A stretch of DNA of 21,291 nt. It comes from a virus. The notes under the pieces are model-generated. The model was not told the origin of the DNA, did no database searches, and saw only the letters and a list, made by a program, of their open reading frames with translations. The stretch lies in IMG/VR virus record IMGVR_UViG_3300006924_003609, positions 1 through 21,291 of that record; one strand, written 5' to 3'. Numbering within the stretch: the first letter of the stretch is position 1; the number at the start of each line of letters is the position of its first letter. Shown piece by piece: positions 197 through 12,830 of this stretch. The translations under genes and the position numbers were made by a program.

Positions 197-835
197 ATGG
201 AAGAAGTTTCAATTATCCCTTCAGGGTACTTTGGTGACAGTTCTAACAACATCGTTGTGTTTGAAAATTTTATTGACCCTGACGATCTAAGTCTGGTTCA
301 GGCTTTCTTACCCACGATTGATGAATGGGACAACGGTAAAGATACGGAGTACGACGAGAACGGTGTATGCATTTATGATGCTGCCTATTGGAATGATCGT
401 ATGTGCAGTGGTGGGATTATAGGACGAAAGAATCCTGTGGTGTACCAGACTATTGAAAAATATATTGAAAAGATGGCCGGTAAAGTGCAGGAGTTTTTCA
501 ACGTTAAAGTGTCATCACGTAACCCTGTTTTGATGCGATGGTTTGAGGGTATTGAGCAACAGCCGCACGCTGACAAAGAGCTAAATTGCGGAAGCCCCAA
601 TCCTTTTCCCACGTATGACCTCAACTCTCTAATTTATTACAACGACGATTTTACTGGTGGGGAACTGTACTTCCCTGACCACGATATTGAAATTACCCCA
701 AAGCCAGGTTTGGCAGTAATGTTCGTAGGTGATCGAAACTATCTTCATGGGGTCCGCACGGTAACGAGTGGTGAACGCTGGACCACGCCGTCGTTTTATA
801 CTGTTGTGGAGAACTATAACGAGGGGGCCTGGTGA
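197..835 (+). CDS. Fe(II)/2-oxoglutarate-dependent oxygenase, prolyl-4-hydroxylase-like (oxygenase 1)
   Basis: A 212-residue cytoplasmic protein with the double-stranded beta-helix signature of Fe(II)/2OG oxygenases. The facial triad is His124-x-Asp126 (PHADKE) and His184 (YLHGV), and the 2OG-binding Arg194 is ten residues after the distal histidine (SGERW). Between them is the core strand pair YYNDDFTGGELYFP, typical of small prolyl-hydroxylase-like enzymes (PF13640 type). Family members couple decarboxylation of 2OG to hydroxylation of a substrate; the substrate here is unknown. The ATG follows a perfect leaderless promoter. The 3' end overlaps the next gene by GTGA, so the two are probably translationally coupled. 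The family call is firm; a role beyond oxidation is not. Confidence 0.85.
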   Translation: MEEVSIIPSGYFGDSSNNIVVFENFIDPDDLSLVQAFLPTIDEWDNGKDTEYDENGVCIYDAAYWNDRMCSGGIIGRKNPVVYQTIEKYIEKMAGKVQEFFNVKVSSRNPVLMRWFEGIEQQPHADKELNCGSPNPFPTYDLNSLIYYNDDFTGGELYFPDHDIEITPKPGLAVMFVGDRNYLHGVRTVTSGERWTTPSFYTVVENYNEGAW

Positions 836-1404
836 AAGAGCGAGATGGTGTAGTAGTTGTACCTGATTTTTTAGCTCCTGACACTGTTGCGCTGTTTACC
901 GAAGAAATATCCAAGCTCCCTCGTCACGATATTGAAGACCACTTATACGATAAGTGTGTTCAGATGGGTGAGAGCGATGTCTTGAGTCCCTTGATGGGAG
1001 ACTTAAGATCAAATGTTAAAGAGTTTATTGAAGACTACTATTCATGTGTGGTCGGGCATGAAGAACTAGCCTCGCTAGTTAGTGGGCTTCCCGGATGGGA
1101 GTTACAGCTTCACGCTGACACCCTTCAAGATACGGCCTTGAACTTAGGAACTTACGGAGGCTACCCCTCCCGTGACATTTCCACGCTTCTGTATTTTAAC
1201 GATCACGGCACCGATTTTACTGGTGGTGATCTTTTTATGCCGAATCAAGATTTGTTTATTTTTCCAAAAGCAGGGACACTGGTTGCGTTCCCAACAAGCG
1301 AAAAGTATCTGCATCAAGTGGCTAAAATTCAGTCTGGTGAGCGATTAAACATCACTACGTTTTGGCATGTCCTAGAAAGATTTGACTCTACCCGATACGT
1401 CTGA
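832..1404 (+). CDS. Fe(II)/2-oxoglutarate-dependent oxygenase (oxygenase 2)
   Basis: A 190-residue protein. The iron-binding His94-x-Asp96 (LHADT), distal His161 (YLHQV) and 2OG-binding Arg171 (SGERL) are all present, with the core LLYFNDHGTDFTGGDLFMP between them. It resembles the preceding gene closely in layout (same spacing of distal His to Arg, same FTGG turn), suggesting an old tandem duplication. The start is GTG, preceded by GAGGGGG at 821-827, and it overlaps the previous stop codon. It is one of the shortest oxygenases in the cluster, close to a bare catalytic core, so substrate selection may depend on a partner. The substrate is unknown. Confidence 0.83.
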   Translation: MKERDGVVVVPDFLAPDTVALFTEEISKLPRHDIEDHLYDKCVQMGESDVLSPLMGDLRSNVKEFIEDYYSCVVGHEELASLVSGLPGWELQLHADTLQDTALNLGTYGGYPSRDISTLLYFNDHGTDFTGGDLFMPNQDLFIFPKAGTLVAFPTSEKYLHQVAKIQSGERLNITTFWHVLERFDSTRYV

Positions 1405-1410
1405 TACGAT
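1382..1410 (+). promoter_or_regulatory. Leaderless promoter for oxygenase 3
   Basis: TTGACT at 1382-1387, 17-bp spacer, TACGAT at 1405-1410, then six bases to the ATG at 1417. The -35 box lies inside the 3' end of the preceding gene, so oxygenase 3 can be transcribed separately from the first two genes. Confidence 0.75.
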
Positions 1411-1416
1411 AACAGC

Positions 1417-2286
1417 ATGAGTTACGGTAACTATAGCGCAGCATCCGAGTTTGACTATGAATATATTGGTAATCCACAGTTGGGGATTGTTGTTTACAAA
1501 AACTGTTTAGATGGAGTAGACTACGTTCCTGACCGTTTACATGCTGCGCTCGATGATAGTTCACACGATTACTTTAAGTGGCACGAGTCGTTAGTGGGTG
1601 AGGGCGTAAAAATGCCTGAGTACCGGGATTGTACCGACTTTAAGATGGCTGAGGAGTACATCCCTAATACGCCGCCTTCATTTTCGGAGATCAACAATGT
1701 GTACACAGATGTTGCGGGCCGGATTAAGTCTGGATTGAATCACTATCAGAGCATGTACAACATTACTATGCGCTACATGGAGGCAATCAACTTTGTTCGG
1801 TACGGGCCAGGGGAGCACTTCGCAGTGCATACTGACCACGGATTTTCTTACATTTGTACGGTATCTAACATTGTGTACTTTAATGACGGGTACGAGGGTG
1901 GGGAGCTACACTTTCCGCTGCTGGACATTTCGTATAAGCCTGAAGCGGGTGATTCAATATTTTTCCCTTCAACGTACATCTACGCTCATGCATCTCTGCC
2001 GGTGACATCAGGGTTCAAATACGCTGCGGTAACAATGTTTGACTACAACGATGACTCACATCAGCATGGTGGGTTCTCACGAGACTTCGGGCAGTCTTCT
2101 GAGCAACCTGCTCAGCCTGCCTTCCCTGAGGGCGGTCAGACACAGCCTGAAAGTAGCCCGACACAGGTAGCCGCCTTTGATGAAGAGCAGTTACGCAAAA
2201 TTATTTACGATGAGATTCACAAGTACGCTGTTGCTAGTTGGGAAGCCAATCAGGGCTACACACAAGATCAGATGAGGAAACAATGA
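1417..2286 (+). CDS. Fe(II)/2-oxoglutarate-dependent oxygenase with Gln/Pro-rich C-terminal extension (oxygenase 3)
   Basis: A 289-residue protein. The catalytic core is His138-x-Asp140 (VHTDH) and His191 (YAHASL), with the strand NIVYFNDGYEGGELHFP between them. The position that holds the 2OG-binding Arg in its neighbours is Lys201 here (TSGFKYA); Lys can bind the 2OG carboxylate in some families. After residue about 210 comes a Gln/Pro/Ser-rich, probably disordered linker, then a short charged helix (about 255-275) that may be a docking element. The gene has its own leaderless promoter and ends in an ATGA overlap with the next gene, coupling it to the uncharacterised block downstream. Confidence 0.82.
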   Translation: MSYGNYSAASEFDYEYIGNPQLGIVVYKNCLDGVDYVPDRLHAALDDSSHDYFKWHESLVGEGVKMPEYRDCTDFKMAEEYIPNTPPSFSEINNVYTDVAGRIKSGLNHYQSMYNITMRYMEAINFVRYGPGEHFAVHTDHGFSYICTVSNIVYFNDGYEGGELHFPLLDISYKPEAGDSIFFPSTYIYAHASLPVTSGFKYAAVTMFDYNDDSHQHGGFSRDFGQSSEQPAQPAFPEGGQTQPESSPTQVAAFDEEQLRKIIYDEIHKYAVASWEANQGYTQDQMRKQ

Positions 2287-3011
2287 GCAAACTAACTCTT
2301 TTGCGTACCCATCAAGGTTCGCCGGAGATTCAACAGTCACGGCTTATGCGTGGCTGGATGGACGACACTTACAATAAACACGCTTACCGCTGCTTGCCTT
2401 TGTCTATGGCAAATGTGAACGGTTGGGAAATTTTGTTACCGTGTGATGTTGTCGTAAAGTGGGATGGGGGTGACACTGTTCCCACACTTGTCTCGGGCGG
2501 AGAGTACAACAACCGTATGGTTGCGGACTGCAATAAGATAGGCATGGTCGATTTTCCGTTGGGTTGGGCATTCAATACTGACGAGGGCTATCATACGTGG
2601 GTAACTGGGTCCCCTAACTATTTTGTAGAGGGCGCTGTCCCGCTGTCTTCAATCATCCCTAGCGACTGGTGGCCGGATGAAGTTCCAACGGCTTGGAAAC
2701 TGACGGAGCCAGGTAAAGAGGTTGTGTTTCCTAAGGGTATGCCGTTCGCATTCTTTTTCGTTTTTGATACAAACCTTATGCCTGCTATTGAGTGTAATGT
2801 TGAGAATTTATGGGATAAGCCCGATTTGATGGAAAGCCGTATGCGCTACAGCGAGGCCAAGATGAAGAAGATGCAGGAAGCGCCGTGGACTTGGATGAAC
2901 GGAATCCGTACAGGGTTAGACGAGCAAGGCAATCAGATTGGCCCACGCTACGAGGGGTCCGTGAAATTAGACGTACCAGAAGTGCCGGAGGTATCATGGC
3001 ATACGCAATGA
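2283..3011 (+). CDS. Uncharacterised 242-residue protein (possibly DUF6065-like)
   Basis: The start was set at the ATG that overlaps the previous stop (ATGA), preceded by GAGGAAA; an in-frame GTG/ATG further upstream would run far into the oxygenase gene. The protein is soluble, Trp- and Pro-rich and has no signal peptide. Recognisable segments are NVNGWEILLPCDV followed by VKWDGG near residues 40-65 and FPKGMPFAFFFVFD near 150. From memory the pattern resembles the uncharacterised DUF6065 family, but this could not be verified. It lies between an oxygenase and two small genes, all tightly overlapping, so it is likely a functional partner in the same pathway. No catalytic motif is visible. 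Confidence 0.75.
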   Translation: MSKLTLLRTHQGSPEIQQSRLMRGWMDDTYNKHAYRCLPLSMANVNGWEILLPCDVVVKWDGGDTVPTLVSGGEYNNRMVADCNKIGMVDFPLGWAFNTDEGYHTWVTGSPNYFVEGAVPLSSIIPSDWWPDEVPTAWKLTEPGKEVVFPKGMPFAFFFVFDTNLMPAIECNVENLWDKPDLMESRMRYSEAKMKKMQEAPWTWMNGIRTGLDEQGNQIGPRYEGSVKLDVPEVPEVSWHTQ

Positions 3012-3358
3012 ATGTACACACCCCTCTGGGTATTGAGAAGTTCTTGTTGGATTTACCCACGGAAGATAACTGTGGGAGCGCCCACATGCTTAAGGGTAGT
3101 TTAGATTTTACTTCGTTCAACAAAATGAATGAGACTTATGTTTTATCTGCATTTACTGAGGTCCCATTTAGCTGCTTGGTTAGAGTACAGTGTACACCTA
3201 GTGATGAAACGTTGACCGGGGTTGTTGAGATTGGTGATAGTGACACAGGCGAAATCATGTTCTCGTGCCCTATCGACGGACAAGTTTCTAGCAATCCGCA
3301 TCCTTGGATTGATCAACATGCTGCTTGGAGCGAAAAATATAAATGGAGGGACCAATGA
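2996..3358 (+). CDS. Hypothetical protein, 120 aa
   Basis: The start is the ATG at 2996, five bases after a good GCCGGAG ribosome-binding site, inside the 3' end of the previous gene. Longer in-frame starts would overlap that gene by more than 100 bases. The 120-residue soluble protein has predicted mixed beta structure and cysteines at about 22, 59, 64 and 85, but no recognised metal-binding or catalytic motif. The 3' end forms an ATGA overlap with the peroxidase-like gene, so the two are probably made together. Function unknown. Confidence 0.72.
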   Translation: MAYAMNVHTPLGIEKFLLDLPTEDNCGSAHMLKGSLDFTSFNKMNETYVLSAFTEVPFSCLVRVQCTPSDETLTGVVEIGDSDTGEIMFSCPIDGQVSSNPHPWIDQHAAWSEKYKWRDQ

Positions 3359-3972
3359 GCGTTTATGATGTGCAGATGAAGTCAATTGATGGCGAAGCAG
3401 ACTTCATGCAACAATTTGATGGTAAGGTGACGCTGGTCGTGAACATTGTGTCAAAGTTGGGGTATACTCCCCAGTGCAGCACCTTCTGGTCTTTTGGACG
3501 CACGACACGCCAGTTGTGGCAGTTACAGAAAGTTCATGACGAGTTTAAAGATCGTGGGTTTAGCGTTGTTGGCTTCCCCTGCAATCAGTTCGGGCAGATG
3601 GAGCCTGGTGAAAACGAGGAGATTTCTGAGTGGGTAAAGCAGACGTATCCATTTGTTAATTTTCCGCTGTCTGAAAAAATTGAAGTTAACGGTAAGGGCG
3701 GAAGTCTAGTGTACTCTGCTTTACTGGGTAACGTGACCCGTGTTAAGGATGCGTCTCCTGCCGACACTTCAGAGGCGGCATATTTAGGCTGGAACAAGTC
3801 GGGTGGTGCAGTCGCCCGTATTCCGCACAGTTGGGAAAAGTTTGTTGTCAGCAGGAGCGGTGAGATGATTACTCGTTTCAATTGGCAGAGCGATCCGCTA
3901 GACGACGTTCCTCTAACTACTGGTGAAAGTTGGACAATCCGAGAGTGCATTGACGAGGTACTGGACTACTAA
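3355..3972 (+). CDS. Glutathione-peroxidase-like protein with degenerate active site
   Basis: A 205-residue thioredoxin-fold protein with clear family landmarks: LVVNIVSKLGYTPQ (residues 27-40), GFPCNQFGQMEPGENEEI (73-90) and a PHSWEKFVVSRSGEMITRF segment (157-175). In active enzymes the first landmark is NVASK[Cys/Sec]GxT; here the peroxidatic residue is Leu35. The usual Trp-Asn of WNFEKF is His158-Ser159, and only Gln78 of the catalytic tetrad is kept. Cys41 and Cys76 remain. An insertion after residue 41 lengthens it beyond the usual 160-180 residues. Classical peroxidase activity is therefore unlikely; it may be a binding or regulatory pseudoenzyme, or use Cys41. Start: ATG at 3355 after GGAGGG, overlapping the previous stop. 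Confidence 0.8.
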   Translation: MSVYDVQMKSIDGEADFMQQFDGKVTLVVNIVSKLGYTPQCSTFWSFGRTTRQLWQLQKVHDEFKDRGFSVVGFPCNQFGQMEPGENEEISEWVKQTYPFVNFPLSEKIEVNGKGGSLVYSALLGNVTRVKDASPADTSEAAYLGWNKSGGAVARIPHSWEKFVVSRSGEMITRFNWQSDPLDDVPLTTGESWTIRECIDEVLDY

Positions 3973-3976
3973 ACGG

Positions 3977-4004: not shown

Positions 4005-4856
4005 ATGCGTTTAAGAAACAGTGTGCAGAAAATTGCGCTTGAAGATAAGTTGAGTCGGCTTCGTCCATTTTTAGAACAGTCTATGCGGCTGGAGGGTATT
4101 GATCCTGACGAGTATCCAGATGTTCAGGATTTAATTGATACAATTCCGGGCATGATGCCCATCATTAATGATGGCGATCCAGTTAGATTCAGAGGAGGTT
4201 ATAGGCTGTGGGCGTCGGTGCCACGTACCGACCATCCCGATCATTGGATGAATGCGCTGTGCTCTTCTACAGAGACGCATATGCCTATGACCGTAGACGA
4301 GTTATATGGTAGAGAAGACTACAAGTCTACTGTTCTGGACCACACGGGTTCTGATTTTCTGAGAATGATTGAAAAGCATTTAACTCTGTTACACCACGAA
4401 GGGCTGGCTCATATCATTTATACGCAAGTTGACTCTGATGTGGGTGCAGGAATTATTGAAAAGTTACAGATGACTCATCCGTACACTGCTGCCTGCTCTT
4501 TGCATGAGTTCTTTAAACTTTTACTGGAGTGGCAGTGGGCTTTGCTGTACGCAGATAACACCGAGCCGGTTGCTCAGTTAGCAAGTGACGTGTTGGAGTA
4601 TTTTGAATTGCATGTTGACGAAGAGGATTCTAACGAAATTGTTCGGGATTTGATGGCTCTTCCCGATATGCAGGTGGCACAATATGTGAGAACGGGGGAG
4701 TGTTCTCTGAATCAAGTTACCCCCGACATGCCTTTGTCTTTCAGGCTCTGGGCGGCAACGAAGAATCTGATGGAAGAGCCTCGCCCGATACTTGCGCAAC
4801 TATACATTGATTGTGTATCATATAAGAACATCGAGAAAGATTTAGGAAGATTGTGA
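4005..4856 (+). CDS. Hypothetical protein, 283 aa
   Basis: A soluble, acidic, mostly alpha-helical protein starting at an ATG with GAAAGG eight bases upstream. No family was recognised. Visible features are a His-containing helix (MIEKHLTLLHHEGLAH, about residues 121-136), several Asp/Glu-rich loops, and scattered Trp residues around 175-180 and 250. There is no signal peptide or membrane segment. It is the largest unknown gene in the block between the two groups of oxygenases and may have its own weak promoter. The helical His/Glu-rich character could suit metal binding, but no defined motif supports that. Confidence 0.8.
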   Translation: MRLRNSVQKIALEDKLSRLRPFLEQSMRLEGIDPDEYPDVQDLIDTIPGMMPIINDGDPVRFRGGYRLWASVPRTDHPDHWMNALCSSTETHMPMTVDELYGREDYKSTVLDHTGSDFLRMIEKHLTLLHHEGLAHIIYTQVDSDVGAGIIEKLQMTHPYTAACSLHEFFKLLLEWQWALLYADNTEPVAQLASDVLEYFELHVDEEDSNEIVRDLMALPDMQVAQYVRTGECSLNQVTPDMPLSFRLWAATKNLMEEPRPILAQLYIDCVSYKNIEKDLGRL

Positions 4857-4863: not shown

Positions 4864-5082
4864 ATGGCTGTAACAGTTTCCGATGCCCAGCGGCAAAAAG
4901 CTAAAGAAAAAGCAATGGATTTTTTAAATCAAAACATTGTGTCTATGGCGATGATGCTGAACATTGATCCGAGCACACTAACGTCAAGCTATGTTATTCC
5001 GGTGTCCGAGAATGACACTGATTACCCTGCGTATCGTTCGCTTTTGACGATGGTAGGCAACTTGGAAGCCTTGGAATCATGA
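4864..5082 (+). CDS. Small hypothetical protein, 72 aa
   Basis: A helical, soluble protein of 72 residues, beginning seven bases after the stop of the previous gene. The ribosome-binding site is weak (GTGAGAAA). The N-terminal third is rich in Lys/Gln/Ala and likely helical. The 3' end makes an ATGA overlap with the next gene. No homology recognised. Its position in an unbroken chain of overlapping genes is the main support for it being real. Confidence 0.65.
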   Translation: MAVTVSDAQRQKAKEKAMDFLNQNIVSMAMMLNIDPSTLTSSYVIPVSENDTDYPAYRSLLTMVGNLEALES

Positions 5083-5354
5083 AGAAGTATGTCGTCGTTG
5101 ATAGCTCCGTGGAGCGAGAGGCCGCAGCAGACGGTGTAGATATTAACGCCTTTGGGGAGTCTGACCAAGGCCCAGAGCCGACAGACGCTTCTCGGGTGTC
5201 TGAAGAGCCTGTAAAGTTCGATTCGTCCACGACTGCGTGGAATGTGCCTTCGGGCGAGGGCTTCCTTTGTCATTTCTACTCCGGTGACACTGATCCGTTA
5301 AGGACTTCTTTACCGTTGTCCGCTGAGAGCTTAGACGAGTTTGCCGATGAGTAG
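5079..5354 (+). CDS. Small acidic hypothetical protein, 91 aa
   Basis: A strongly acidic protein with many Asp/Glu/Ser residues, probably partly disordered between residues 20 and 50. It begins with the hydrophobic stretch KKYVVVDSS and has a more hydrophobic middle (WNVPSGEGFLCHFYSG). No motif recognised. The start codon overlaps the previous stop (ATGA), and its 3' end overlaps the next gene by eight bases, indicating coupled translation. Confidence 0.65.
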   Translation: MKKYVVVDSSVEREAAADGVDINAFGESDQGPEPTDASRVSEEPVKFDSSTTAWNVPSGEGFLCHFYSGDTDPLRTSLPLSAESLDEFADE

Positions 5355-5646
5355 GGTTGGGAATGCAAGTTCACCGGCTTATAATGCTGTAGCAGATTTG
5401 GCGCATGTGGAGCGAGAGTTAATTACGGTGATGTACTCTCTCGGCATGAATACAGAAACTATTTCGTCTTCTTCGTTTGATGAGATCGTTGCTGGTATTA
5501 AATCAACCTTCCCTTTCATTCGTTTAGAGCAGGGCCACACATTAGCTTCTAACGATGCATTGAAGGAAATTAACGTGTTATTGATGGTGAATGTGCGGCG
5601 ACTGTGGCATCGCTGGCAGCTAGCGGAGAGTATTGTTAATGGATAA
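5347..5646 (+). CDS. Small hypothetical protein, 99 aa
   Basis: The ATG at 5347 is chosen over a TTG two codons upstream. The protein is helical, with a Ser-rich turn around residues 39-43 and a Trp/Arg-rich C-terminal helix (LLMVNVRRLWHRWQLAE, about 77-93). No family recognised. It overlaps both neighbours by eight bases. The amphipathic basic C-terminal helix could be an interaction surface, but no specific role can be argued. Confidence 0.65.
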   Translation: MSRVGNASSPAYNAVADLAHVERELITVMYSLGMNTETISSSSFDEIVAGIKSTFPFIRLEQGHTLASNDALKEINVLLMVNVRRLWHRWQLAESIVNG

Positions 5647-6382
5647 GATTCTAGGTAATAAGTTTTTAATTGCGAACGCACTGACTTACGAGTTTTCCAA
5701 AAACGCATCTCAGGAGCTTGACTACGATTTCTTTTCGGTGCATGATGATATTGTCCGGGCGGTTAACGCTGACTGGCGCTCTAAGAATCTTGACCGTCGT
5801 TCAATTGCGGTCGGCACCGACTTTTATATGCATGTGTGGGACTTGCTATCAGGCAAAGTTGCGGGCTGGAAAGAGATGGTTTACATTTCCACTGGTATCT
5901 ACTCGCAGATGGTTGTCGATTTGATTAAACCGACTTCGGCGTTAGTTGCGTCACCCGATAGAAACTTTGACTTTGTTTCAGATTTAAACAGAAGGGGGTG
6001 TGCTTTAACTTTCTTAAATAACGATTGTTTACAGGCTTTTGAGGCGCATGTTCTCACACACCCTGAATACAAGTTCACTGGAGATTACACTGTAATTGAG
6101 TATGCCGAATTAGAAGCAATGACAGAGCCACAGTTTGATTTCGTTCACATGCACTCACCTGACCTTACTCTTAATCCTGCGCTGATCGGGAAGATTGTTG
6201 ATATTACAAATTCCGGTGGGGCGCTGTATCTTTCAGGCGTGAACGAAATGATGCGTCTCTACTCTCCTGACTACTACATTGAGCCGTTGTACGACTTGTA
6301 CGAGGCGCTTGATGAACGCACAGACATTACAAGCTACCATATCCCTCATGCAATTGGGTTCCAAATTTTAGTAAAGAAGTAA
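5639..6382 (+). CDS. Possible Rossmann-fold (SAM methyltransferase-like) protein, 247 aa
   Basis: Starts at the ATG at 5639, eight bases after GCGGAGAG. The C-terminal half alternates hydrophobic strands and helices as in class I methyltransferases: FDFVHMHSPDL (about 166-176), a helix, then VDITNSGGALYLSGVNEMMRLY (about 187-208), resembling the motif IV strand and the GG turn before strand 5. The glycine-rich SAM-binding loop (GxGxG) is not obvious; ALVASPDRNFDFV near 100 occupies a similar place. It could be a diverged methyltransferase or a non-catalytic Rossmann protein. It ends one base before the next oxygenase gene, so a joint role in modification is plausible. Confidence 0.6.
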   Translation: MDKILGNKFLIANALTYEFSKNASQELDYDFFSVHDDIVRAVNADWRSKNLDRRSIAVGTDFYMHVWDLLSGKVAGWKEMVYISTGIYSQMVVDLIKPTSALVASPDRNFDFVSDLNRRGCALTFLNNDCLQAFEAHVLTHPEYKFTGDYTVIEYAELEAMTEPQFDFVHMHSPDLTLNPALIGKIVDITNSGGALYLSGVNEMMRLYSPDYYIEPLYDLYEALDERTDITSYHIPHAIGFQILVKK

Positions 6383-6383: not shown

Positions 6384-7451
6384 ATGACCGACGACAATGT
6401 TCAGCCCGACGATTGGCGTAGTGGGGACCCCCATCCCGACACACCTGTTATTGATGATGCTGCTCTCAAGGAAATTGGTGAGTTTGAGGTAGAGGACTTG
6501 GGCGGCGGTGTTATGGTGTTCAGAAAGGCCGTTACAGGAGATACAGAAGAAGTATTCAAGTATATTGATGCACAGTCCGAGGTATCTCATCAGAACAGGT
6601 GGGAGTATATTGTTGGTGAGGACGGGGAAAAGTATGGCATCAACGAAGATGGTTTTAGATATCGGCCTGAAGATATTCCTGCAACACCCGTTCGGTTACT
6701 TCACCCTGTAACAAAAGACACGCCGGATGTCCCACGTGAGTTTTTTCACGGCATGGAGGACACGATTTACAAAGCGCTTCTGCGTTATATCGACTACTTC
6801 CCGCTGCTTGTTGGGTGCGTGTGGTGGAAAAATCGGGGGCACATTCTTCGTTATGCCGATGAAGGTATCTTGGGCGCTCACTGCGATAATGATACAAACT
6901 ATAAAGTAACCGAGGGCGTGCGTTATATGCCTCGTGGGCAGATGGCCGCACGGCAGACTTGTGGATGCCTAGTGTATCTAAACGACTCTGTTGAGAGTGA
7001 AGACGAGTTAGACGGTACAAACTTTACTGGCGGAATGCTAGAGTTCTTTCATCTGGGTATTGAGTACAAGCCCAAGAAAGGCGACATCGTATTTTTCCCA
7101 ACGAATTACATGGCGTCCCATCAGGTAAGCCGAATGGACGCTGGGGTACGTTATACTTATCTATCTTTCTTTGGTCAAGGCTCTCCGCACCAAGAAGGAA
7201 ACATCAATATCGTAGAGCCAGACGACAGCTTTCAGTGGTGTCCCGCAATGTGGATGAATAACATTTACGATGATTATGAGCGGTACTGCAAGTCTGACTA
7301 TTCTCGCTTTTCTACGGGCGAGGAACAGAACATCGGGATCAATCCCGTGTATCAGGGGCGGTGTGTGGCCCAGTACGGGGATACTCACGAGGCCGAAGAA
7401 CTTGACGGGGCGGCTAACTGTGGTACGGAGGGTGCGCCGATTGAGCCATGA
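6384..7451 (+). CDS. Fe(II)/2-oxoglutarate-dependent oxygenase, paralogue family A (oxygenase 4)
   Basis: At 355 residues, the largest oxygenase here. The triad is His166-x-Asp168 (GAHCDND) and His246 (MASHQV); 2OG-binding Arg256 lies in DAGVRYTYL. Family A landmarks shared with three other genes in this window are an N-terminal EDLGGGVMVFRKAV (37-50), ALLRYIDYFP (131-140), WWKNRGHILRYADEG (147-161) and FFGQGSPH (262-269). An acidic insertion lies between the core strands (about 200-213). The C-terminal 90 residues are acidic and may be a separate interaction region. The ATG follows AAAGAAG and lies one base after the previous stop. Confidence 0.85.
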   Translation: MTDDNVQPDDWRSGDPHPDTPVIDDAALKEIGEFEVEDLGGGVMVFRKAVTGDTEEVFKYIDAQSEVSHQNRWEYIVGEDGEKYGINEDGFRYRPEDIPATPVRLLHPVTKDTPDVPREFFHGMEDTIYKALLRYIDYFPLLVGCVWWKNRGHILRYADEGILGAHCDNDTNYKVTEGVRYMPRGQMAARQTCGCLVYLNDSVESEDELDGTNFTGGMLEFFHLGIEYKPKKGDIVFFPTNYMASHQVSRMDAGVRYTYLSFFGQGSPHQEGNINIVEPDDSFQWCPAMWMNNIYDDYERYCKSDYSRFSTGEEQNIGINPVYQGRCVAQYGDTHEAEELDGAANCGTEGAPIEP

Positions 7452-8269
7452 TTGATGTAATTGATTGCTGTTACAGCGATGTAATTAACGATTCTGCATA
7501 CTTTGCCGATAAGTTTCTACACGATGGGGTTTTTGGGTTGCGTGGATTACACGCTACCGAAGAAGAACAGTTAAACATTATTGTGGCGTTAGGTGACGAG
7601 ATCGGGTGGGTTCCACGGACTGCTGACTTTGATCGGTCTTGTCTTCGCCGGTATGTTGAAGATCATTCGCACACGTTTGACTATGGAGAGCATACCGGCA
7701 GTGATCTTTCCGTGAATTGGCATTTAGAGCATGTTGAGGCATCATTAGAGAATTCTACAGTGGCAGGGTTCTGGAACATGCTTAAGTTTGATTGTTCGAC
7801 GGATGTGGGGGCGACATACTTTAAAGATAACTCTAAGTTAGTTGAGGACTTGCCCGCAGAGGTGGTAAAGTTCTTACGGAAGTGTGTGGTTTCTGACCAA
7901 GATATTGTGGACAGGAAGGGTCATAGGGCTTCTATCAATTTACGTCACGCAGTTGAGCGCCACCCGTTTAAAGATGCAGAAGTCATTAGAGTCTGTCAGG
8001 GGTATGTGTCTCTAGTTTCTTTTGACGGGCGTGATCCTTCACCTAGTGAGATAGATGAGCTTGAAGCGCATGTTGATACTATTCAAGTAGAAATTATGCG
8101 GGACCTTAAACGTAGACTGACTTGGAATTGGCAAGTGGGGGATATGCTTGTGAGCGATTTGTTTACGATGTCACACGCTGTTTCTGGTGGCTTTAAGCAG
8201 AGTGAGCGAAAGTTTTTAGGCTACTTTTGCAGCCACCCAGCCATTGACAGTGCTTCTCTGTTTCAGTAG
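7448..8269 (+). CDS. TauD/clavaminate-synthase-like oxygenase with HxE iron motif (oxygenase 5)
   Basis: A 273-residue protein of a different 2OG oxygenase branch. The iron-binding motif is His92-x-Glu94 (WHLEHVE), the distal ligand His243 (MSHAVSGGF) and the 2OG-binding Arg254 (QSERKF). The HxE variant is known from clavaminate synthase, AsnO and VioC, which hydroxylate free amino acids or related small molecules, so this gene may act on a small substrate rather than a protein. The start ATG overlaps the previous stop; the nearest GGAGGG is 16 bases upstream, rather far. Its TAG stop is also the first half of the -10 box of the next gene. Confidence 0.8.
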   Translation: MIDVIDCCYSDVINDSAYFADKFLHDGVFGLRGLHATEEEQLNIIVALGDEIGWVPRTADFDRSCLRRYVEDHSHTFDYGEHTGSDLSVNWHLEHVEASLENSTVAGFWNMLKFDCSTDVGATYFKDNSKLVEDLPAEVVKFLRKCVVSDQDIVDRKGHRASINLRHAVERHPFKDAEVIRVCQGYVSLVSFDGRDPSPSEIDELEAHVDTIQVEIMRDLKRRLTWNWQVGDMLVSDLFTMSHAVSGGFKQSERKFLGYFCSHPAIDSASLFQ

Positions 8270-8278: not shown

Positions 8279-9172
8279 ATGTTTGTTTCGTACAATGATC
8301 CCGAGCCAGAAGATTTAGGCGGCGGTGTAGTTGTTTTCCGCAATGCCGTTTCGTGCGAGTGGGAGAAACTTTATGATGAGGTTTCTCTGCTTGTTGACGA
8401 AGAGTATGCCGGAATGTACACAGAGGTCACCAACCCTGAAACGGGCGAGATTGCTTACGAGAACAAAAGTGGATATCTGTTTGGGTTAGACACATACGAG
8501 TCTATGCCCCGCCGTGGTTCTTCTCTTCACCTAAACCCACGAGAAGATGTAAGACACTTGCTACGTGCGCTGGAAGATGCTAAAGACGCTTGTTTACTTA
8601 AGTATTTTACTTGTTACCCTTTGGCGTACAATTGCGTTTGGTGGAAGGTGAAGGGGCATGTGGTGTCCTATGGTGACGGTGTTTATCTAGGATCACACTC
8701 AGATATCAGTGCTGAGTATGTGTACGGAGTTCACCGGACATCGCAGGAGTTAGCTTTACGTAATGTTGTGTCTAATGTGACATATCTAAACTCTTCTGTG
8801 CCTGAGTCAGAGTTGAACGCTAGAAACTTTACAGAAGGTGCCCACAATTTCAACTATTTAAATATCGACCCTATTGTCCCTGAGGCGGGCACGATTATAT
8901 TCTTCCCTTCTAACTATGTGGCGGCTCACGAAGTTTGCCCGGTGGGGAAGGGGCGTAGGATGTCGTATTTGGGTTGGTACTCTCAGGGTACCCCTAATTC
9001 CGCTGTCCGGGAAGACGTTATTGATCCTTTGGTAAATCCTGAAGGGGCTGAATCCAGTACGAATGTGTGGATGCCCACGTTGCGTGAAGATTACCGGGCC
9101 TTTTTAGAAGAGCGTGGCTATGACGAGCGCTCAGAGCAATACAGAACTACTTTGTTAAACTCGGAGGGGTAA
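8279..9172 (+). CDS. Fe(II)/2-oxoglutarate-dependent oxygenase, paralogue family A (oxygenase 6)
   Basis: A 297-residue paralogue of oxygenase 4. The triad is His140-x-Asp142 (GSHSDIS) and His217 (AAHEV); Arg227 (GKGRRMSYL) would bind 2OG. It shares the N-terminal EDLGGGVVVFRNAV, WWKVKGHVVSYGDG and FFPSNYVAAHEV with its relatives. The usual ND-[YF]-x-GG turn of the core is altered to a longer ARNFTEGAHNF segment. It has its own strong leaderless promoter. The stop TAA overlaps the ATG of the next gene by one base. Confidence 0.84.
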   Translation: MFVSYNDPEPEDLGGGVVVFRNAVSCEWEKLYDEVSLLVDEEYAGMYTEVTNPETGEIAYENKSGYLFGLDTYESMPRRGSSLHLNPREDVRHLLRALEDAKDACLLKYFTCYPLAYNCVWWKVKGHVVSYGDGVYLGSHSDISAEYVYGVHRTSQELALRNVVSNVTYLNSSVPESELNARNFTEGAHNFNYLNIDPIVPEAGTIIFFPSNYVAAHEVCPVGKGRRMSYLGWYSQGTPNSAVREDVIDPLVNPEGAESSTNVWMPTLREDYRAFLEERGYDERSEQYRTTLLNSEG

Positions 9173-9939
9173 TGATTCAAGCAGAGCATGTTGGTATGGG
9201 CGTTGTGATTTGCCGCAACGTATTGGAAGTTGATCCTGACTTTTTTGCGAAGTATTGTGGTTGGCTTACGGGTGAGTCGGAGCAGACTTTTAAGTTTGAG
9301 AAAGATCATGCCGTTAATCAGACAGGGTTCAAGTTTAGCCTTGAGGATATCGGGATGGCCCCACAGCGCTTCTTGGAAACTCGTGGGGCTAGCCGTGCAA
9401 CTGAAGTTCCTCAGGAGTACTTAGACTTTGTGGACTCGTGTGAGGATGCACTGTATCGGGCACTTGTAGAGTACTGCACGATCTTCCCGGATGCGGCTAC
9501 AACGGCTTGGTGGCGACCGAAGGGGCATGTGGCGGTGTACGACGCAGGGCAGCACATTGGTCCCCACTGTGACGATCAGGTACCGTTTGAATGGGGTGAA
9601 TCTCCACCTAATCAGGTTTCGATGCACAACAGTACCAGCATTAATCTTTATCTAAACAACTGTGGGACGGATTATACTGGCGGAGAAATTAACTTCCCTC
9701 ATGCAGATTATGCGTTTACGCCGGAAGCTGGGTCGGTCGCTATTTACCCCTCCAGTTATGTCGGAAGGCATGAAGTGTATCCTGTAGAGTCAGGGAGACG
9801 AGTTGCCTTTTTAAGCATGGCCTGCTATGGTGTGGATACCCCGAACAACGAGATTGTCGGGCAAGAAGGCGCTAGGATTTGGATGCCCAATCTGATTGCT
9901 GACAGTCAGGCGGGGTCAACAGAAGGACGCCGTTCGTAG
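9172..9939 (+). CDS. Fe(II)/2-oxoglutarate-dependent oxygenase, paralogue family A (oxygenase 7)
   Basis: A 255-residue paralogue of oxygenases 4 and 6. The triad is His132-x-Asp134 (GPHCDDQ) and His200 (GRHEV); Arg210 (SGRRVAFL) would bind 2OG. Shared landmarks are GMGVVICRNVLEVDPD near the N-terminus, ALVEYCTIFP and WWRPKGHVAVYDAG. The GGAGGGG ribosome-binding site (9163-9169) is only two bases from the ATG, unusually tight. The last 34 bases overlap the 3' end of the convergent minus-strand oxygenase gene, so there is no room for an ordinary terminator. Confidence 0.84.
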   Translation: MIQAEHVGMGVVICRNVLEVDPDFFAKYCGWLTGESEQTFKFEKDHAVNQTGFKFSLEDIGMAPQRFLETRGASRATEVPQEYLDFVDSCEDALYRALVEYCTIFPDAATTAWWRPKGHVAVYDAGQHIGPHCDDQVPFEWGESPPNQVSMHNSTSINLYLNNCGTDYTGGEINFPHADYAFTPEAGSVAIYPSSYVGRHEVYPVESGRRVAFLSMACYGVDTPNNEIVGQEGARIWMPNLIADSQAGSTEGRRS

Positions 9940-10502
9940 ATTGAGAAGTCTACATTTGCGTTCATGTTTGGTTCTGCGGGATCAAAGTTTGCGCCAATTA
10001 CAAGACGTGTCTCCGGTGACTGTTGGCGTTCTGTCCAGTGTAGGACGTAGGACGGAAAAATAACGTACATTCCCGATTGCGGCTGTACGTGTGTGTTTCT
10101 GTGTACTGTGTTACACCAAGTGGCTGATAGGATGAGTTTGGCAGATTTCTCATCGGCTATAGGGTAGTAGACTGCCGACCAGTAGTCTTCGGGGTGAATG
10201 TGAAAGTTGGCGTGGTGAGAGTGAGGTCCGACACTCTTCCCGTGCTGTAAGTTTAGTGCCCACTGGTTCTTCAGAATTAAGTCATTGTTTTCTGCGCCAT
10301 ACTGAACTAGACGAGTCATGCGAGTTAGTAGCTCGTTTATCTCCGGGGTGTCGGGTAACAGAATGTCTTGGTCGTCCCACGGCTCCTCTTCATCGCCACA
10401 GGGTTCACCGTACTGTGTGATTTGATGGGAGATTAACTCGTTGTCGATGTCATCAAGATGTCCTTGGAAGAAGGGGATATTGACTAGTGATTTTTTATCC
10501 AT
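9906..10502 (-). CDS. Putative 2OG-Fe(II) oxygenase, HxH-type (oxygenase 8)
   Basis: A 198-residue protein with the layout of the phage-associated family described by TIGR02466/PF13759: a histidine-rich motif (His94, 96, 97, 101, 103), then HPEDYWSAVYYPI, a strand, GMYVIFPSYVLHW with His155, and TRLVIGANFD with Arg166. His101-x-His103-Pro followed by the SAVYY strand is the best match to the family metal site. It differs from the other oxygenases here in having no HxD. The start has AAAGGA ten bases upstream. It is the last gene of the minus-strand run and overlaps the end of the convergent plus-strand gene. Confidence 0.7.
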   Translation of the reverse strand: MDKKSLVNIPFFQGHLDDIDNELISHQITQYGEPCGDEEEPWDDQDILLPDTPEINELLTRMTRLVQYGAENNDLILKNQWALNLQHGKSVGPHSHHANFHIHPEDYWSAVYYPIADEKSAKLILSATWCNTVHRNTHVQPQSGMYVIFPSYVLHWTERQQSPETRLVIGANFDPAEPNMNANVDFSIYERRPSVDPA

Positions 10503-11337
10503 TACTAAGTTCCTTTCGGGTACCTTTTGAGTTGAACGATCTTAGCACAGGGAGAAGTAAGTCTCCACTGAGTTCATGATTTGTAACATATTCTTCGTAG
10601 TCTACAAAAAAGTCGTGCATCCAGACTTGACCGCTGTAAATGTTACTGCTGTCCTCTACTATGTTGACTCCATATTCCGGGGCAGATGAACCTTGTCCAA
10701 AGTATGATAAGTACGCATAGCGGTTGCCTGCGGTAATTGGGTTGACTTCGTGAGCACAAACAAAGTTTGCGGGAAACAGGAGTACGTCTCCGGCCTTAGG
10801 CGAGTACGTCACGTTGGCGTAGGGGAAAACAATGTCGCCTCCTTCATAGTCGTCGTTCAAGTATGCAATCGCAGCCAAAACGTGTTTGACGCCTAGTTGA
10901 AAGTCTGGCTCGTAGTGGGGCTGGTAGTTGATGTCATTGTCAGCGTGTAGTCCAAGTGCCGATCCCGCCTTGTACGAAAGTACGTGTCCTTTTGTTTTCC
11001 ACCAGAGGCAGGGAACAATCATAGGAAACTCTGTGGCGTACTGTAACAGTGCGTTGTAGACTTCTGTTTCTATGGTTTTAAAATAGCTTTGTTCCCACTC
11101 GTGTTGAAGGTCATTAAAGTTATTTATCCTGACACAGTTTGCTTCAATTTCTTCTGGTGTGAAGCGGTGTCCACTTAAGTTGGTGGCGTGTAGCACATTA
11201 CCGGCGTCGTCATAAATGTATGTGTAGTGTTTCGCTAAGGCTTCGGCTCTTAGGGCCTCAATGGTAGGGAAGATGTTTGAATCAATGGATACTGCGTCTG
11301 CAATCCTGACGATTCCCATTCCTAAGTGCTCAGACAT
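10495..11337 (-). CDS. Fe(II)/2-oxoglutarate-dependent oxygenase, paralogue family A (oxygenase 9)
   Basis: A 280-residue protein, the fourth member of family A but on the opposite strand. The triad is His131-x-Asp133 (GLHADND) and His196 (CAHEV); Arg206 (AGNRYAYL) would bind 2OG. Shared features are GMGIVRIADAVSIDSN at the N-terminus, ALLQYATEFP, WWKTKGHVLSYKAG and SYFGQGS. The core NDDYEGGDIVFPYANVTYSPKAGD is the most canonical of the family. It overlaps both neighbours by eight bases, so the minus-strand run is an operon. The similarity across strands implies duplication followed by inversion or separate insertion. Confidence 0.85.
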   Translation of the reverse strand: MSEHLGMGIVRIADAVSIDSNIFPTIEALRAEALAKHYTYIYDDAGNVLHATNLSGHRFTPEEIEANCVRINNFNDLQHEWEQSYFKTIETEVYNALLQYATEFPMIVPCLWWKTKGHVLSYKAGSALGLHADNDINYQPHYEPDFQLGVKHVLAAIAYLNDDYEGGDIVFPYANVTYSPKAGDVLLFPANFVCAHEVNPITAGNRYAYLSYFGQGSSAPEYGVNIVEDSSNIYSGQVWMHDFFVDYEEYVTNHELSGDLLLPVLRSFNSKGTRKELSNG

Positions 11338-12142
11338 TGCCGTGGTTCATTTCTTTTTGGTGCCTTTCGATAGCGTCGTTTATGGGATAGTATGGCTCAC
11401 CTAATCCGCTGGTTATGTTGGTCTTGGTGTGCATAAACAGAAAGAGATAGGCTTTATTACCTGCTGTTATTTCTGAAACGGCGTGCGTTACGGTACACGG
11501 TAACATCACGATACTTCCGGCTTTAGGGGACAGAAAAAAATCAGCGTGTTTATTGTAGTCCGTGCCTAGTGCGTCTAATTCTTCCGGTGAACGGGCATGG
11601 AAGGAAAGGTCGCCCCCTTCGTAATCATCGTTTAAGTAAAGCAATGCAGTCCAATCCATTGTGTTTATAGGATTTTCAATGTTTTTGTCAATGTGTGCGC
11701 CCATAGCGCCACCAGTTCTGTACTCTCGTAAGCAGTAGTTGCGTGTAATATAGGCGGGCATCGTGTTGCCGGTTATCCCTGCCCAAACATCCAGAGCTTT
11801 AATGTAGTCTGGTTCAATTAAGTTGATTATCTTGTCAGCTAGGTTGTGCGCTTTACTAAAATCTGGAGTTGTTTGTTTCCGGGGCCAGTGTTGATTTTCG
11901 TTTAGGTCCCAGTCGAAATGCTTTGCTCGCCCTCTGTGGCTTTCATGGGTATGCTCTACAATCTGTTTCCAGCCGTCTTCGGTGCGTACTGGACCGCCGT
12001 CGTACCATTCTTCCCACGCTGGGATAACTGGATACAAATCGGCGTTAGTGTCGTGTTCTTCAATTACACGCATAAACTCGGCAGCGTTAGGTAGCGCATC
12101 TTCAATGTAGATAACACCGTAATCAAGTTCATTTACTCTCAT
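11330..12142 (-). CDS. Fe(II)/2-oxoglutarate-dependent oxygenase (oxygenase 10)
   Basis: A 270-residue protein. The triad is His150-x-Asp152 (GAHIDKN) and His220 (VTHAV), with the core LLYLNDDYEGGDLSF. The position expected for the 2OG-binding Arg holds Lys230 (ITAGNKAYL), as in oxygenase 3. An insertion of about 20 residues (HARSPEELDALGTDYNKHAD) splits the core after the GG turn. The start ATG at 12142 has AGGGGAA nine bases upstream and overlaps the previous stop. Substrate unknown. Confidence 0.82.
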   Translation of the reverse strand: MRVNELDYGVIYIEDALPNAAEFMRVIEEHDTNADLYPVIPAWEEWYDGGPVRTEDGWKQIVEHTHESHRGRAKHFDWDLNENQHWPRKQTTPDFSKAHNLADKIINLIEPDYIKALDVWAGITGNTMPAYITRNYCLREYRTGGAMGAHIDKNIENPINTMDWTALLYLNDDYEGGDLSFHARSPEELDALGTDYNKHADFFLSPKAGSIVMLPCTVTHAVSEITAGNKAYLFLFMHTKTNITSGLGEPYYPINDAIERHQKEMNHGNV

Positions 12143-12830
12143 AGAAAAATTCCCCTGCCTCTAACGCAAACGGTGGACGATCCTTATGCCACACGTTAAC
12201 AACTAGCACCTGACGAATTCCTGATAGGACCGGTGTAGTTTCGTGCATTCTCCTGCCTACATCAAACGATACTACTCTGTTAGGCACATATGCAATACGT
12301 TCTCGATCATCCTTAGGAGACAGGTACGCTTCTACTGATTCTTGCTCTAAGATATTGTCAGGGAAGCCCTCAATGCTGGCTTTATGAACTTCTAACATTC
12401 CGCCTTCAGGCGCTTCAGTGAATCCGTACCACACACTTCCCGCAATCGGAGCGTTGAATCTTTTATACTTTGCGTAAAGAAATGTGTCTTCATCGACGTG
12501 GTGTGCGAGGTACTGCGGGGGTACACATGATCTTGTCCAGTACTCAAATCCAATAACGTCGTCTAAACTAAAGTTTCTTATCGCAGGGTTTTCCCAGATA
12601 GCCTGAATTACTTGCTTCTTTAGAGTGTCGGCAGGAGAGTTCCACCAGCCGTCCCAAAACATGTACGGCGCAAAACACGATGACGCTTCGGTGTGGTACA
12701 TCATGCCGTGAGAGTCCCCAATATTATTGCGGTCCTCAAAGGTGTCCATGAGGGGAGGGAAGAAGCTCTCATCTTCTTTGATGGCTTGAATCAAGTCTGG
12801 GTCGGTGAGGAAGTTATCTTGGACGTACAT
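12129..12830 (-). CDS. Fe(II)/2-oxoglutarate-dependent oxygenase (oxygenase 11)
   Basis: A 233-residue protein, first gene of the minus-strand run. The triad is His111-x-Asp113 (AHHVDED) and His196 (RMHETTPVLSG), and Arg206 (SGIRQVLV) is the 2OG ligand. The core differs from the others: VWYGFTEAPEGGMLEVH replaces the usual NDDYxGG turn. The HETxPVLSGxRxVL pattern is typical of plant- and phage-type prolyl hydroxylase relatives. It starts with no Shine-Dalgarno sequence, six bases after a -10 box, so its mRNA is probably leaderless. It is divergent from the thioredoxin gene. Confidence 0.82.
   Translation of the reverse strand: MYVQDNFLTDPDLIQAIKEDESFFPPLMDTFEDRNNIGDSHGMMYHTEASSCFAPYMFWDGWWNSPADTLKKQVIQAIWENPAIRNFSLDDVIGFEYWTRSCVPPQYLAHHVDEDTFLYAKYKRFNAPIAGSVWYGFTEAPEGGMLEVHKASIEGFPDNILEQESVEAYLSPKDDRERIAYVPNRVVSFDVGRRMHETTPVLSGIRQVLVVNVWHKDRPPFALEAGEFFYESK

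Follow-up and report, generated by a model that had tools for sequence, protein, structure and literature searches.

An oxygenase gene array beside an (F/Y)FPP-repeat gene in the fibre region of related phages: a candidate locus for virion tailoring

Tandem proline/aromatic repeats with hydroxyproline are used for stiffness or adhesion in plant extensins and in mussel foot protein. Phages often carry 2OG oxygenases without known substrate, and 87 phage records match just one of the enzymes treated below (OX3). The cyanophage 2OG-Fe(II) oxygenases (phrog_61 and relatives) come several to a genome: eight cyanophage records have 2-13 PF13640 matches each at E 0.001 (13 in S-SCSM1, of which 9 exceed the cut-off), and the genes are spread over tens of kb or more, singly or in small groups. 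A virus-encoded prolyl 4-hydroxylase (P4H) is found in PDB 5c5t/5c5u, which we take to be the enzyme of Paramecium bursaria chlorella virus 1 (PBCV-1). That 4-hydroxyproline occurs in viral proteins is the claim made in the title of Eriksson et al. (1999), as cited in a paper on the Baltic Sea virome (PMC9301287), which says in one passage that the use of prolyl 4-hydroxylase by viruses “remains cryptic”. In Dictyostelium a hydroxyproline made in Skp1 by the prolyl hydroxylase PhyA is then glycosylated by Gnt1, as outlined in a passage of PMC3515798. The open-licence PMC literature on phage hydroxylation, FPP repeats and DUF6065 gave no description of a system like the one presented here.

The window, that is the whole stretch of 21,291 nucleotides analysed here (positions 1 to 21,291 of the IMG/VR record IMGVR_UViG_3300006924_003609), holds eleven 2OG oxygenase ORFs at 197-12830, seven on the plus strand and four on the minus strand. 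Ten of them pass the Pfam gathering cut-off for PF13640, PF02668 or PF13759. PF13640 is above cut-off in eight genes: OX1 (197..835, +, 212 aa), OX2 (832..1404, +, 190 aa, GTG start as called), OX3 (1417..2286, +, 289 aa), OX4 (6384..7451, +, 355 aa), OX6 (8279..9172, +, 297 aa), OX7 (9172..9939, +, 255 aa), OX9 (10495..11337, -, 280 aa) and OX10 (11330..12142, -, 270 aa); when the whole record is counted the number for the window is 7. One gene each is above cut-off for PF02668 (the TauD-family oxygenase, 7448..8269, +, 273 aa) and for PF13759 (the putative 2OG oxygenase OX8, 9906..10502, -, 198 aa). The eleventh, OX11 (12129..12830, -, 233 aa), has no meaningful Pfam match and was assigned by its conserved site and fold. 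OX4, OX6, OX7 and OX9 form a paralogue series with 27-35% identity over about 260-280 aa, OX1 and OX2 are a pair (29.6% identity), OX3 and OX10 are branches of their own, and the TauD-family protein, OX8 and OX11 each stand apart. An earlier note, made from the sequence alone, had described a phage-like region with eleven oxygenase genes of several branches, and proposed profile searches as a check; all of this holds, most of the eleven being assigned by profile. The same note considered the count of eleven to be without precedent. This is not supported: the cyanophages match it, and the count as such was rejected as the novelty. What is new is the context, an array beside an FPP-repeat gene of the fibre region, and this repeat was found in none of the eight cyanophage records. 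PBCV-1 is an algal virus with a single enzyme, whereas the arrays described here belong to a prokaryotic virus, number 4-12 PF13640 genes per record in addition to further oxygenases, and lie beside the repeat protein.

An HxD/E...H metal site and an Arg or Lys for 2OG are conserved in ten of the eleven families, OX10 being judged from only 5 close sequences. The residues are H124/D126/H184/R194 in OX1, H94/D96/H161/R171 in OX2, H138/D140/H191/K201 in OX3, H166/D168/H246/R256 in OX4, H92/E94/H243/R254 in the TauD-family protein, H140/D142/H217/R227 in OX6, H132/D134/H200/R210 in OX7, H131/D133/H196/R206 in OX9 and H150/D152/H220/K230 in OX10. In OX8 H94, H96, H101, H155 and R166 are conserved, and among them are the candidate ligands of an HxH-type site. 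An alignment of 38 sequences shows H111, D113 and H196 of OX11 to be invariant and R206 to be conserved in at least 90%. The AlphaFold2 model of OX11 (mean pLDDT 92.1) has as its best Foldseek matches WelO5, a bacterial P4H and PHD2, with E values of 4e-6 to 4e-5 among the matches listed and TMq of 0.30-0.50, but the rmsd is large, 5-11 Å.

A lysine as partner of the 2OG carboxylate is the rule in prolyl 4-hydroxylases. K201 of OX3 is invariant in 25 sequences, and among solved structures the OX3 profile is nearest to P4Hs (3itq, 5hv0 and 5iax, E about 8e-9 to 1e-8), with the PBCV-1 enzyme 5c5t matched at E 0.002; OX3 is thus classed, by profile and site, as closest to the prolyl 4-hydroxylases. 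For OX1 the nearest solved structure is prolyl 3-hydroxylase 1 (8k0e, E 3.7e-8), with P4Hs next at 2e-6, and the protein is predicted to be prolyl 3-hydroxylase-like. OX9 has only weak solved relatives. The profiles of OX4 and OX6 found no solved relative at E 0.1, so these two need not be prolyl hydroxylases.

The window begins inside another gene, just upstream of OX1, whose 3' end (3..158, +) codes for 12 tandem (F/Y)FPP units followed by AFK and a stop codon. The earlier note was silent on this repeat, in which we see the key to the locus. In a near-identical record of 55 kb (G025) the complete gene codes for 339 aa (G025:32988-34007) and comes after genes matching tail-fibre PHROGs. The earlier view that the substrate cannot be deduced is not supported either: the (F/Y)FPP tail encoded at the left edge of the window and upstream of it, on a protein of a fibre cassette, is a strong candidate. 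Selection acts on the repeat peptide: the 21 units of the G025 tail are encoded by 13 different DNA units, and in 141 uncurated repeat proteins with 0-57 units each, 86% of the 2215 units are FFPP or YFPP. The N-terminal parts vary, while tail and array are constant: among 10 proteins Fn3 is over cut-off in 4, PASTA in 1 and nothing in 5, and the G025 protein has a weak match to a PHROG of unknown function and an Fn3 match below cut-off. Cellular genomes are nearly devoid of the repeat. A scan of 257 billion bases (genome_contigs) gave 4 stretches. Three of these appear to lie on phage contigs within MAGs, and two of the three (L432, L433) have OX1 and OX3 nearby. The contigs belong to MAGs of mixed taxonomy and were read as misbinned phage, and a host assignment from them was rejected.

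The linkage was analysed in two directions. Starting from the array, 30 larger array-bearing relatives were chosen by hand, by size, and compared with 50 random virus records, namely the first 50 of 80 listed with contigs >11 kb. All 30 relatives have PF13640 matches, 4-12 per record, and none of the 50 random records has any such block; the block is neither a chance arrangement nor a one-off assembly. Scattering of the genes in related phages, which the earlier note had named as an argument against its reading, was not seen. The FPP repeat is present in 29 of the 30 array records and in none of the 50 random ones. The single exception is G016, in which the matched locus starts at base 3 of the record. 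When the pattern was written backwards as a control it gave 1-4 matches in 8 of the 30 array records, whereas the 29 had 5-27 matches each, forward or reverse.

Starting from the repeat, a search of virus records gave at least 120 stretches, 118 of which (L194-L311) were used; 8 of these lie, by contig name, on contigs already in the array set. An FPP ORF was called in 88, and 61 with more than 4 kb on one side were testable. With custom profiles at E 1e-4, an oxygenase was found in 47 of the 61 (median gap 290 bp) and a DUF6065-type gene in 38, compared with none of 120 random loci in either case; 14 of the 61 have neither. We also took 45 repeat records, hand-picked for length from 80 listed, with array-set records excluded and at least 9 other listed records >11 kb unused. 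Seven of them lack any PF13640 match over their full length, including G034, G061, G065 and G072 (31-39 kb); by custom profile, G065 and the short G063 each hold an OX1-type ORF. It should be noted that the records are related, as DUF6065 proteins from 121 repeat-bearing loci fall into no more than 3, 6 and 12 clusters at 40%, 50% and 60% identity, so the counts are not independent events. Megablast with the whole window, and tblastn with the DUF6065 protein of the relative G001 or with the glycosyltransferase discussed below, found no named phage relative, and searches of phages with OX3 and OX4 matched only remote cyanophage-type oxygenases. In phage DSL-LC01 (OQ999401), where WhiB and a Trp halogenase are shared, no ORF contains as many as three FPP.

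The oxygenases are interleaved with unknown genes, as had been noted earlier, and one of these is now recognized as DUF6065 (2283..3011, +, 242 aa; PF19541, E 3.6e-44, 151.5 bits, cut-off 26.6), a frequent companion of both the array and the FPP gene. A dUTPase-like fold is predicted for it (Foldseek E 2e-4, TMt about 0.64, TMq 0.36; model against 3lqw, VIA Z 11.1, rmsd 2.9, 113 aligned). Tblastn with this protein found no relative in the phage collection. Distant DUF6065-like forms (L204, L210, L269, L195, L261) were grouped by custom profile or by eye and have no PF19541 match in Pfam. Genes related to the distant form are found close to Gly-rich adhesins in haloarchaeal viruses, where the stretches read contain no FPP repeat, and DUF6065 was therefore rejected as a factor for FPP only. 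Next to the DUF6065 gene of the window lie a small hypothetical protein of 120 aa (2996..3358, +), found in some relatives, and a glutathione-peroxidase-like protein (3355..3972, +, PF00255) with Leu at the usual position of the peroxidatic Cys and another Cys, C41, invariant. Then follow H7 (4005..4856, +, 283 aa), found in close relatives, the small ORF calls H8 (4864..5082, +), H9 (5079..5354, +) and H10 (5341..5646, +), and H11 (5633..6382, +, 249 aa), which recurs in relatives and has no Pfam match at E 1 and no PHROG match at E 0.1. A thioredoxin gene (12901..13287, +, PF00085) flanks the block and is possibly an accessory gene.

Some relatives carry further modification genes. In 24 of the 28 loci that have a glycosyltransferase gene of PF11397 type (16 of 20 contigs), its distance to an oxygenase or DUF6065 gene is 0-43 bp. 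Of 15 sequences taken for a test against PF11397 two fragments were left out, and all 13 others match with an E value of 0.01 or lower (78.1 bits for that of L029, cut-off 21); no solved relative was found. The family occurs in 12 of the 30 array records, in G002 far from the array, and in none of 14 control genomes. Gnt1 presumably belongs to the same family, so that the closeness of PF11397 genes to oxygenases resembles the Skp1 pathway. That pathway differs in acting on one proline of a ubiquitin-ligase subunit instead of a tandem-repeat protein of the fibre region, and the lineage of the window itself, represented by G025, has no PF11397 match. In a distant lineage (L204, L210) the repeat is accompanied by a DUF6065-like gene and a single PF13640 gene, together with genes for an Asp/Asn-hydroxylase-like protein, a sulfotransferase and an APS kinase-like protein. 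A gene of L204 matches Tet_JBP at E 0.17.

We consider it probable that a tailed phage uses this block to tailor its virion, with the oxygenases hydroxylating the neighbouring FPP tail; the context of the array in this group of uncultured bacterial viruses points to chemical decoration of the fibre tip by the virus itself. The sequences show the gene families, the conserved active sites, the structure of the repeat, the genomic linkage and the accessory families, while the hydroxylation itself, FPP as its substrate and the order of the steps are inferred. The P4H-like OX3 and the prolyl 3-hydroxylase-like OX1/OX2 would be the core which hydroxylates the prolines of the (F/Y)FPP tail, and perhaps its aromatic residues would be hydroxylated too. 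The OX4/OX6/OX7/OX9 series, OX8, OX10, OX11 and the TauD-family enzyme may take other positions or act sequentially, and the DUF6065, glutathione-peroxidase-like and thioredoxin proteins could have accessory roles in substrate presentation and redox. In some relatives the PF11397 enzyme might glycosylate the new hydroxyls, or the sulfotransferase together with the APS kinase-like protein might sulfate them. What results would be a fibre tip rich in hydroxyproline and either stiff or sticky; the repeat protein would be part of the virion and may have a role in adsorption or stability.

The enzymes could instead modify mainly other fibre proteins of the virion, large Gly-rich or collagen-like ones from the same cassette, with a separate role for the FPP tail. 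The array does follow fibre genes in G025, and in G001 it has, as read from the sequence, fibre-like genes on one side and sheath/tube-like ORFs on the other, and collagen-like genes adjoin the FPP gene in four loci (L120, L127, L129, L130). We nevertheless find this unlikely, since FPP is present in 29 of 30 array records while collagen-like runs (at least 12 GXY) occur in only 11 of 187 array-set, 8 of 118 repeat and 3 of 120 random loci and are absent from the three G025 loci; none of the selected G025 ORFs has a run of five or more G.. triplets. This scarcity rules out collagen as the regular substrate. That the set modifies host proteins during infection, for instance translation factors or cell-envelope proteins, is improbable: phages commonly target host translation, and a bacterial P4H-EF-Tu complex (4iw3) is among the fold matches of OX11, but the linkage to a fibre-cassette gene and the keeping together of 4-12 such genes would be left unexplained. 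A tailoring cluster for a small molecule or peptide natural product (auxiliary metabolism) would fit the P450, DegT aminotransferase, SDR and sub-cut-off AurF-like genes seen in a few related arrays; it is likewise improbable, as the most regular partner is the repeat protein and a Pfam scan of array proteins (no dedicated search) gave no NRPS, PKS or RiPP genes. Nucleic-acid modification (hypermodified bases or tRNA), which 2OG oxygenases of other families carry out, is hardly credible, because the window oxygenases have no TET/JBP or AlkB match up to E 1 and the name ‘DNA endonuclease’ of some PHROGs matched by window proteins looks like mis-annotation, given that PF13640 is over cut-off in a cyanophage gene called ‘ferrochelatase’ and is matched weakly, below cut-off, by genes called ‘DNA endonuclease V’.

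Returning to hydroxylation of the FPP tail, a wider picture can be drawn more tentatively. Phages, probably of actinobacterial hosts, may build a hydroxyproline-rich fibre tip, in some lineages glycosylated or sulfated, in that a neighbouring multi-enzyme pathway would act on the long (F/Y)FPP repeat to give a rod or adhesive with dense hydroxylation, possibly of aromatics too. It would be a counterpart, in prokaryotic viruses, of extensins and mussel foot proteins, which are eukaryotic and have different repeat sequences, and no homology is claimed; the lineage-specific end-modifications could serve as a code for adsorption or evasion. In most records of a large phage group the enzymes here have a candidate substrate next to them, a repeat of four residues, so that the question is open to direct testing. 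If the reading is true, a protein-hydroxylation pathway would be dedicated to the fibre of a phage, virion assembly would include a step that depends on O2, and the loci would be a source of sequence-specific prolyl hydroxylases; the accessory enzymes point to a broader modification chemistry on phage fibres.

The window opens within a repeat gene: bases 3-158 encode twelve (F/Y)FPP units followed by AFK and a stop. In the near-identical 55-kb relative G025 the gene immediately 5' of OX1, the first oxygenase, codes for 339 aa and its C-terminus consists of 21 tandem (F/Y)FPP units; the sole PHROG match of this protein is weak and has no known function. The 21 units use 13 different DNA words, which argues that the repeat is held at the protein level. 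The genes that precede the array in G025 match structural PHROGs, "tail fiber protein" among them, and a baseplate-protein match is found farther upstream. G001, a relative of 210 kb, has an FPP gene of 124 aa some 1.8 kb ahead of the first oxygenase, and its array is flanked by fibre-like genes and by putative tail sheath/tube ORFs, read as such from N-terminal sequence and not by profile. The FPP gene and its fibre context are absent from the earlier note.

The loci contain 141 distinct ORFs, uncurated, with at least six FPP. Their 2,215 proline-ended units are mostly FFPP (63.7%) and YFPP (21.9%), and at least 60 of the 141, summed over the tails listed, end in xFK. Ten FPP proteins were scanned for Pfam domains: four have Fn3 above the cut-off (L021, L029, L079, L261), one has PASTA (L432), and five have no domain above the cut-off, including that of G025 (Fn3 15.5 bits, cut-off 25).

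All array-bearing records but one (29 of 30) contain the repeat, and no random record does (0 of 50); in the exception, G016, the matched locus is at the extreme end of its record. With only the repeat as query, a scan gave at least 118 loci, 8 of those 118 on contigs already found through oxygenase or DUF6065 scans. Among the matches listed 61 repeat loci are testable. By our own profiles 47 of them have an oxygenase (median gap 290 bp) and 38 have a gene of the DUF6065 type; with the same profiles 120 random loci give 0 of either. The 14 negative loci among these 61 include four with PF13640 elsewhere on the record (G036, G040, G048, G052), three with no PF13640 match across 31-38 kb (G034, G061, G072), and L266, where PF11397-type glycosyltransferase ORFs lie 0.5-1.1 kb from the repeat gene. 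Among 45 FPP records picked by hand and searched over their full length, 38 have a PF13640 match. The seven without one are G034, G037, G061, G063, G065, G071 and G072; the loci of G063 and G065 have an OX1-type ORF by our own profile.

In prokaryote genomes a four-unit FPP pattern occurs in four stretches only, and three of these look like phage contigs in MAGs. One (L432) has OX1, OX3, DUF6065 and three TauD-type genes, the second (L433) has OX1 and a partial OX3 with no FPP ORF called there, and the third (L435) has a weak DUF6065-like ORF in a locus which stops near the repeat. The fourth stretch (L434) has no FPP protein. The repeat is linked to this array and not to phage oxygenases generally, because it is found in 0 of eight cyanophage records that have 2-13 PF13640 matches each. 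It should be added that the DUF6065 proteins of 121 repeat-bearing loci collapse to 3 clusters at 40%, 6 at 50% and 12 at 60% identity, so the lineages in these counts are related.

The eleven 2OG-oxygenase genes claimed in the earlier note are all present in the window, and Pfam profile search assigns ten of them, each above the cut-off: eight to PF13640, one (TauD) to PF02668 and one (OX8) to PF13759. The HxH variant site that had been claimed is seen in OX8. No Pfam family was assigned to OX11 (12132-12830, minus strand). The residues of its HxD...H site do not vary across 38 aligned sequences, and the best fold matches of its predicted model (pLDDT 92.1) are WelO5 together with prolyl hydroxylases (a bacterial P4H and PHD2), with E near 1e-5, yet with rmsd 5-11 Å among the matches listed. 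Each oxygenase family conserves its metal-site residues and the Arg/Lys that binds 2OG, OX10 on the basis of five close sequences only. The division into several branches, also proposed earlier, is borne out by sequence comparison: OX4, OX6, OX7 and OX9 form a single paralogue series (27-35% identity over ~260-280 aa), OX1 and OX2 are a paralogue pair, and TauD, OX8 and OX11 belong to neither group.

The window, which spans an entire IMG/VR virus record (21,291 bases), has no near match among 50,697 named phage records. Scans of viral contigs gave 91 relatives with OX4 as query (79 loci retained) and 152 with the DUF6065 protein (80 retained), on contigs of up to 210 kb. Comparison of gene neighbourhoods confirmed that the oxygenase genes are linked in relatives. 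All 30 larger relatives, which were picked by hand, have 4-12 PF13640 matches per record, and such a set is found in none of 50 records that were selected with an arbitrary 14-mer. Gene order is recognisable across 27 loci, in which OX1, OX2, OX3, DUF6065, a GPx-like gene, the hypothetical protein H11 (5633-6382, plus strand), OX11, OX4, OX9, OX6 and OX7 are recurrent, and it varies through inversions, losses and insertions. The GPx-like protein (3355-3972, plus strand) is duplicated in several relatives; of 57 sequences only 7 have Cys at the usual peroxidatic position, and a different Cys, C41, is invariant in all 57.

To the right of the array the window encodes a WhiB regulator (PF02467; 17242-17637, plus strand) and a protein matching phrog_33218 (20488-21099, minus strand; E 2e-39, unknown function); adjacent tRNA-Ser (tga) and tRNA-Tyr (gta) genes lie at 14835-15005, plus strand. 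WhiB is present in 11 of the 30 array records, including all four of at least 170 kb, and is called exclusive to actinobacteria and their phages in PMC10611076, so the hosts are likely actinobacteria. The MAGs which contain L432, L433 and L435 are labelled Verrucomicrobiales and Gammaproteobacteria; these bin labels are unreliable and should not be trusted as host assignments.

Among solved structures the closest to the OX3 profile are prolyl 4-hydroxylases (E 8e-9), with 5c5t at E 0.002, and the closest to the OX1 profile is prolyl 3-hydroxylase 1 (E 3.7e-8). The OX9 profile has weak matches to PKHD-type hydroxylases and no other solved relative, and OX4 and OX6 have no solved-structure relative at E 0.1. 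Nearly every repeat unit contains a Pro-Pro pair, which would suit one 3-hydroxylase and one 4-hydroxylase. The most likely reading, which we favour with some reserve, is that the enzymes of the array act on the FPP tail of this fibre-cassette protein and hydroxylate it; this would happen before or during virion assembly. The gene families, active sites, repeat, linkage and accessory families are observed directly, and from there we infer reaction, substrate, virion location and purpose.

The DUF6065 protein (2283-3011, plus strand) matches PF19541 with E 3.6e-44. Its model (pLDDT 91.5) has a predicted dUTPase-like fold (Foldseek E 2e-4; VIA: Z 11.1, rmsd 2.9, 113 aligned). More distant DUF6065-like forms (L204, L210, L269, L195, L261) have no PF19541 match and are grouped with the window protein by our own profile or by eye only. 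Relatives of the L204 form were found in 49 records of haloarchaeal tailed viruses; in the four records viewed the gene lies a few genes from an adhesin, annotated as such in HJTV-1 and HCTV-15, and three of these adhesins when translated are Gly-rich and without FPP. In hafunaviruses such as HF2 (L436-L439) relatives of the L204 type, annotated as hypothetical proteins, lie near adhesin/tail-fibre genes. That the array acts on fibre substrates other than the FPP tail is unlikely; action on host proteins ranks lower and seems improbable.

Hydroxylation of the FPP tail may be followed by further steps in some relatives, whose accessory genes fit such chemistry. PF11397-type glycosyltransferase ORFs are present in 28 loci (20 contigs by our count) and in 0 random loci, and the family match was confirmed in 13 of 13 tested. 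For 24 of the 28 loci (16 of 20 contigs) the gap between the ORF and an oxygenase or DUF6065 gene is 0-43 bp; in two it is 554 bp and 1,802 bp, and two are fragmentary, without such a gene. Twelve of the 30 array records carry PF11397, partly outside the array (some 67 kb from it in G002), against 0 of 14 control genomes. We take Gnt1 of Dictyostelium to be a PF11397 member. Gnt1 glycosylates hydroxylated Skp1 (PMC3515798). G025, of the window's lineage, has no PF11397 match, and therefore hydroxylation alone is proposed for the window phage. In a distant minimal lineage (L204/L210) the FPP repeat is accompanied by one PF13640 gene, a DUF6065-like gene and an Asp/Asn-hydroxylase-like gene (PF05118). 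Near the FPP-repeat protein this lineage also has a methyltransferase, a sulfotransferase (PF03567, 25.8 bits in L204, cut-off 22) and an APS kinase-like gene (PF01583, 65.3 bits in L204).

Recurrent in a few related loci are P450 (8), DegT aminotransferase (5), SDR (5) and an AurF-like gene whose match is below the cut-off (4). A Trp halogenase (PF04820, E about 1e-100) adjoins a same-strand PF13640 match at G012:42897-44246, G021:29742-31091 and G030:38738-40081, G012 and G021 being apparently near copies of one another; the family is found in 3 of 30 array records and also in 5 of 14 control genomes. That the array serves a small-molecule pathway is, in our estimate, quite improbable, and action on nucleic acids can hardly be expected.

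Some annotations touch on these enzymes. In cyanophage loci L440, L442 and L447 a "ferrochelatase" gene has a PF13640 match above the cut-off, cyanophage "DNA endonuclease V" genes have weak, sub-cut-off matches, and PHROGs 3531, 2297 and 274 bear names of these types; the genes and PHROGs so named are probably mis-annotated 2OG oxygenases.

A search of open-licence literature brought up no account of a phage fibre with FPP repeats or of a comparable oxygenase array. The phage DSL-LC01, described with WhiB and a Trp halogenase (PMC10611076), has several collagen-like genes, and the halogenase and a glycosyltransferase are encoded a few genes away from them (L451, OQ999401.1 99001-129469); this may be another fibre-modification locus, a parallel from a different phage. 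One viral P4H gene is mentioned as a potential AMG (PMC9469726), and viral use of prolyl 4-hydroxylase "remains cryptic" according to PMC9301287, which cites Eriksson et al. 1999 with virus-encoded prolyl hydroxylation in PBCV-1 as its title claim. Hydroxylation of the FPP tail by the array would have a known part, a virus hydroxylating its own protein, and what would be new is the candidate type of substrate, the prokaryotic virus and the array of enzymes.
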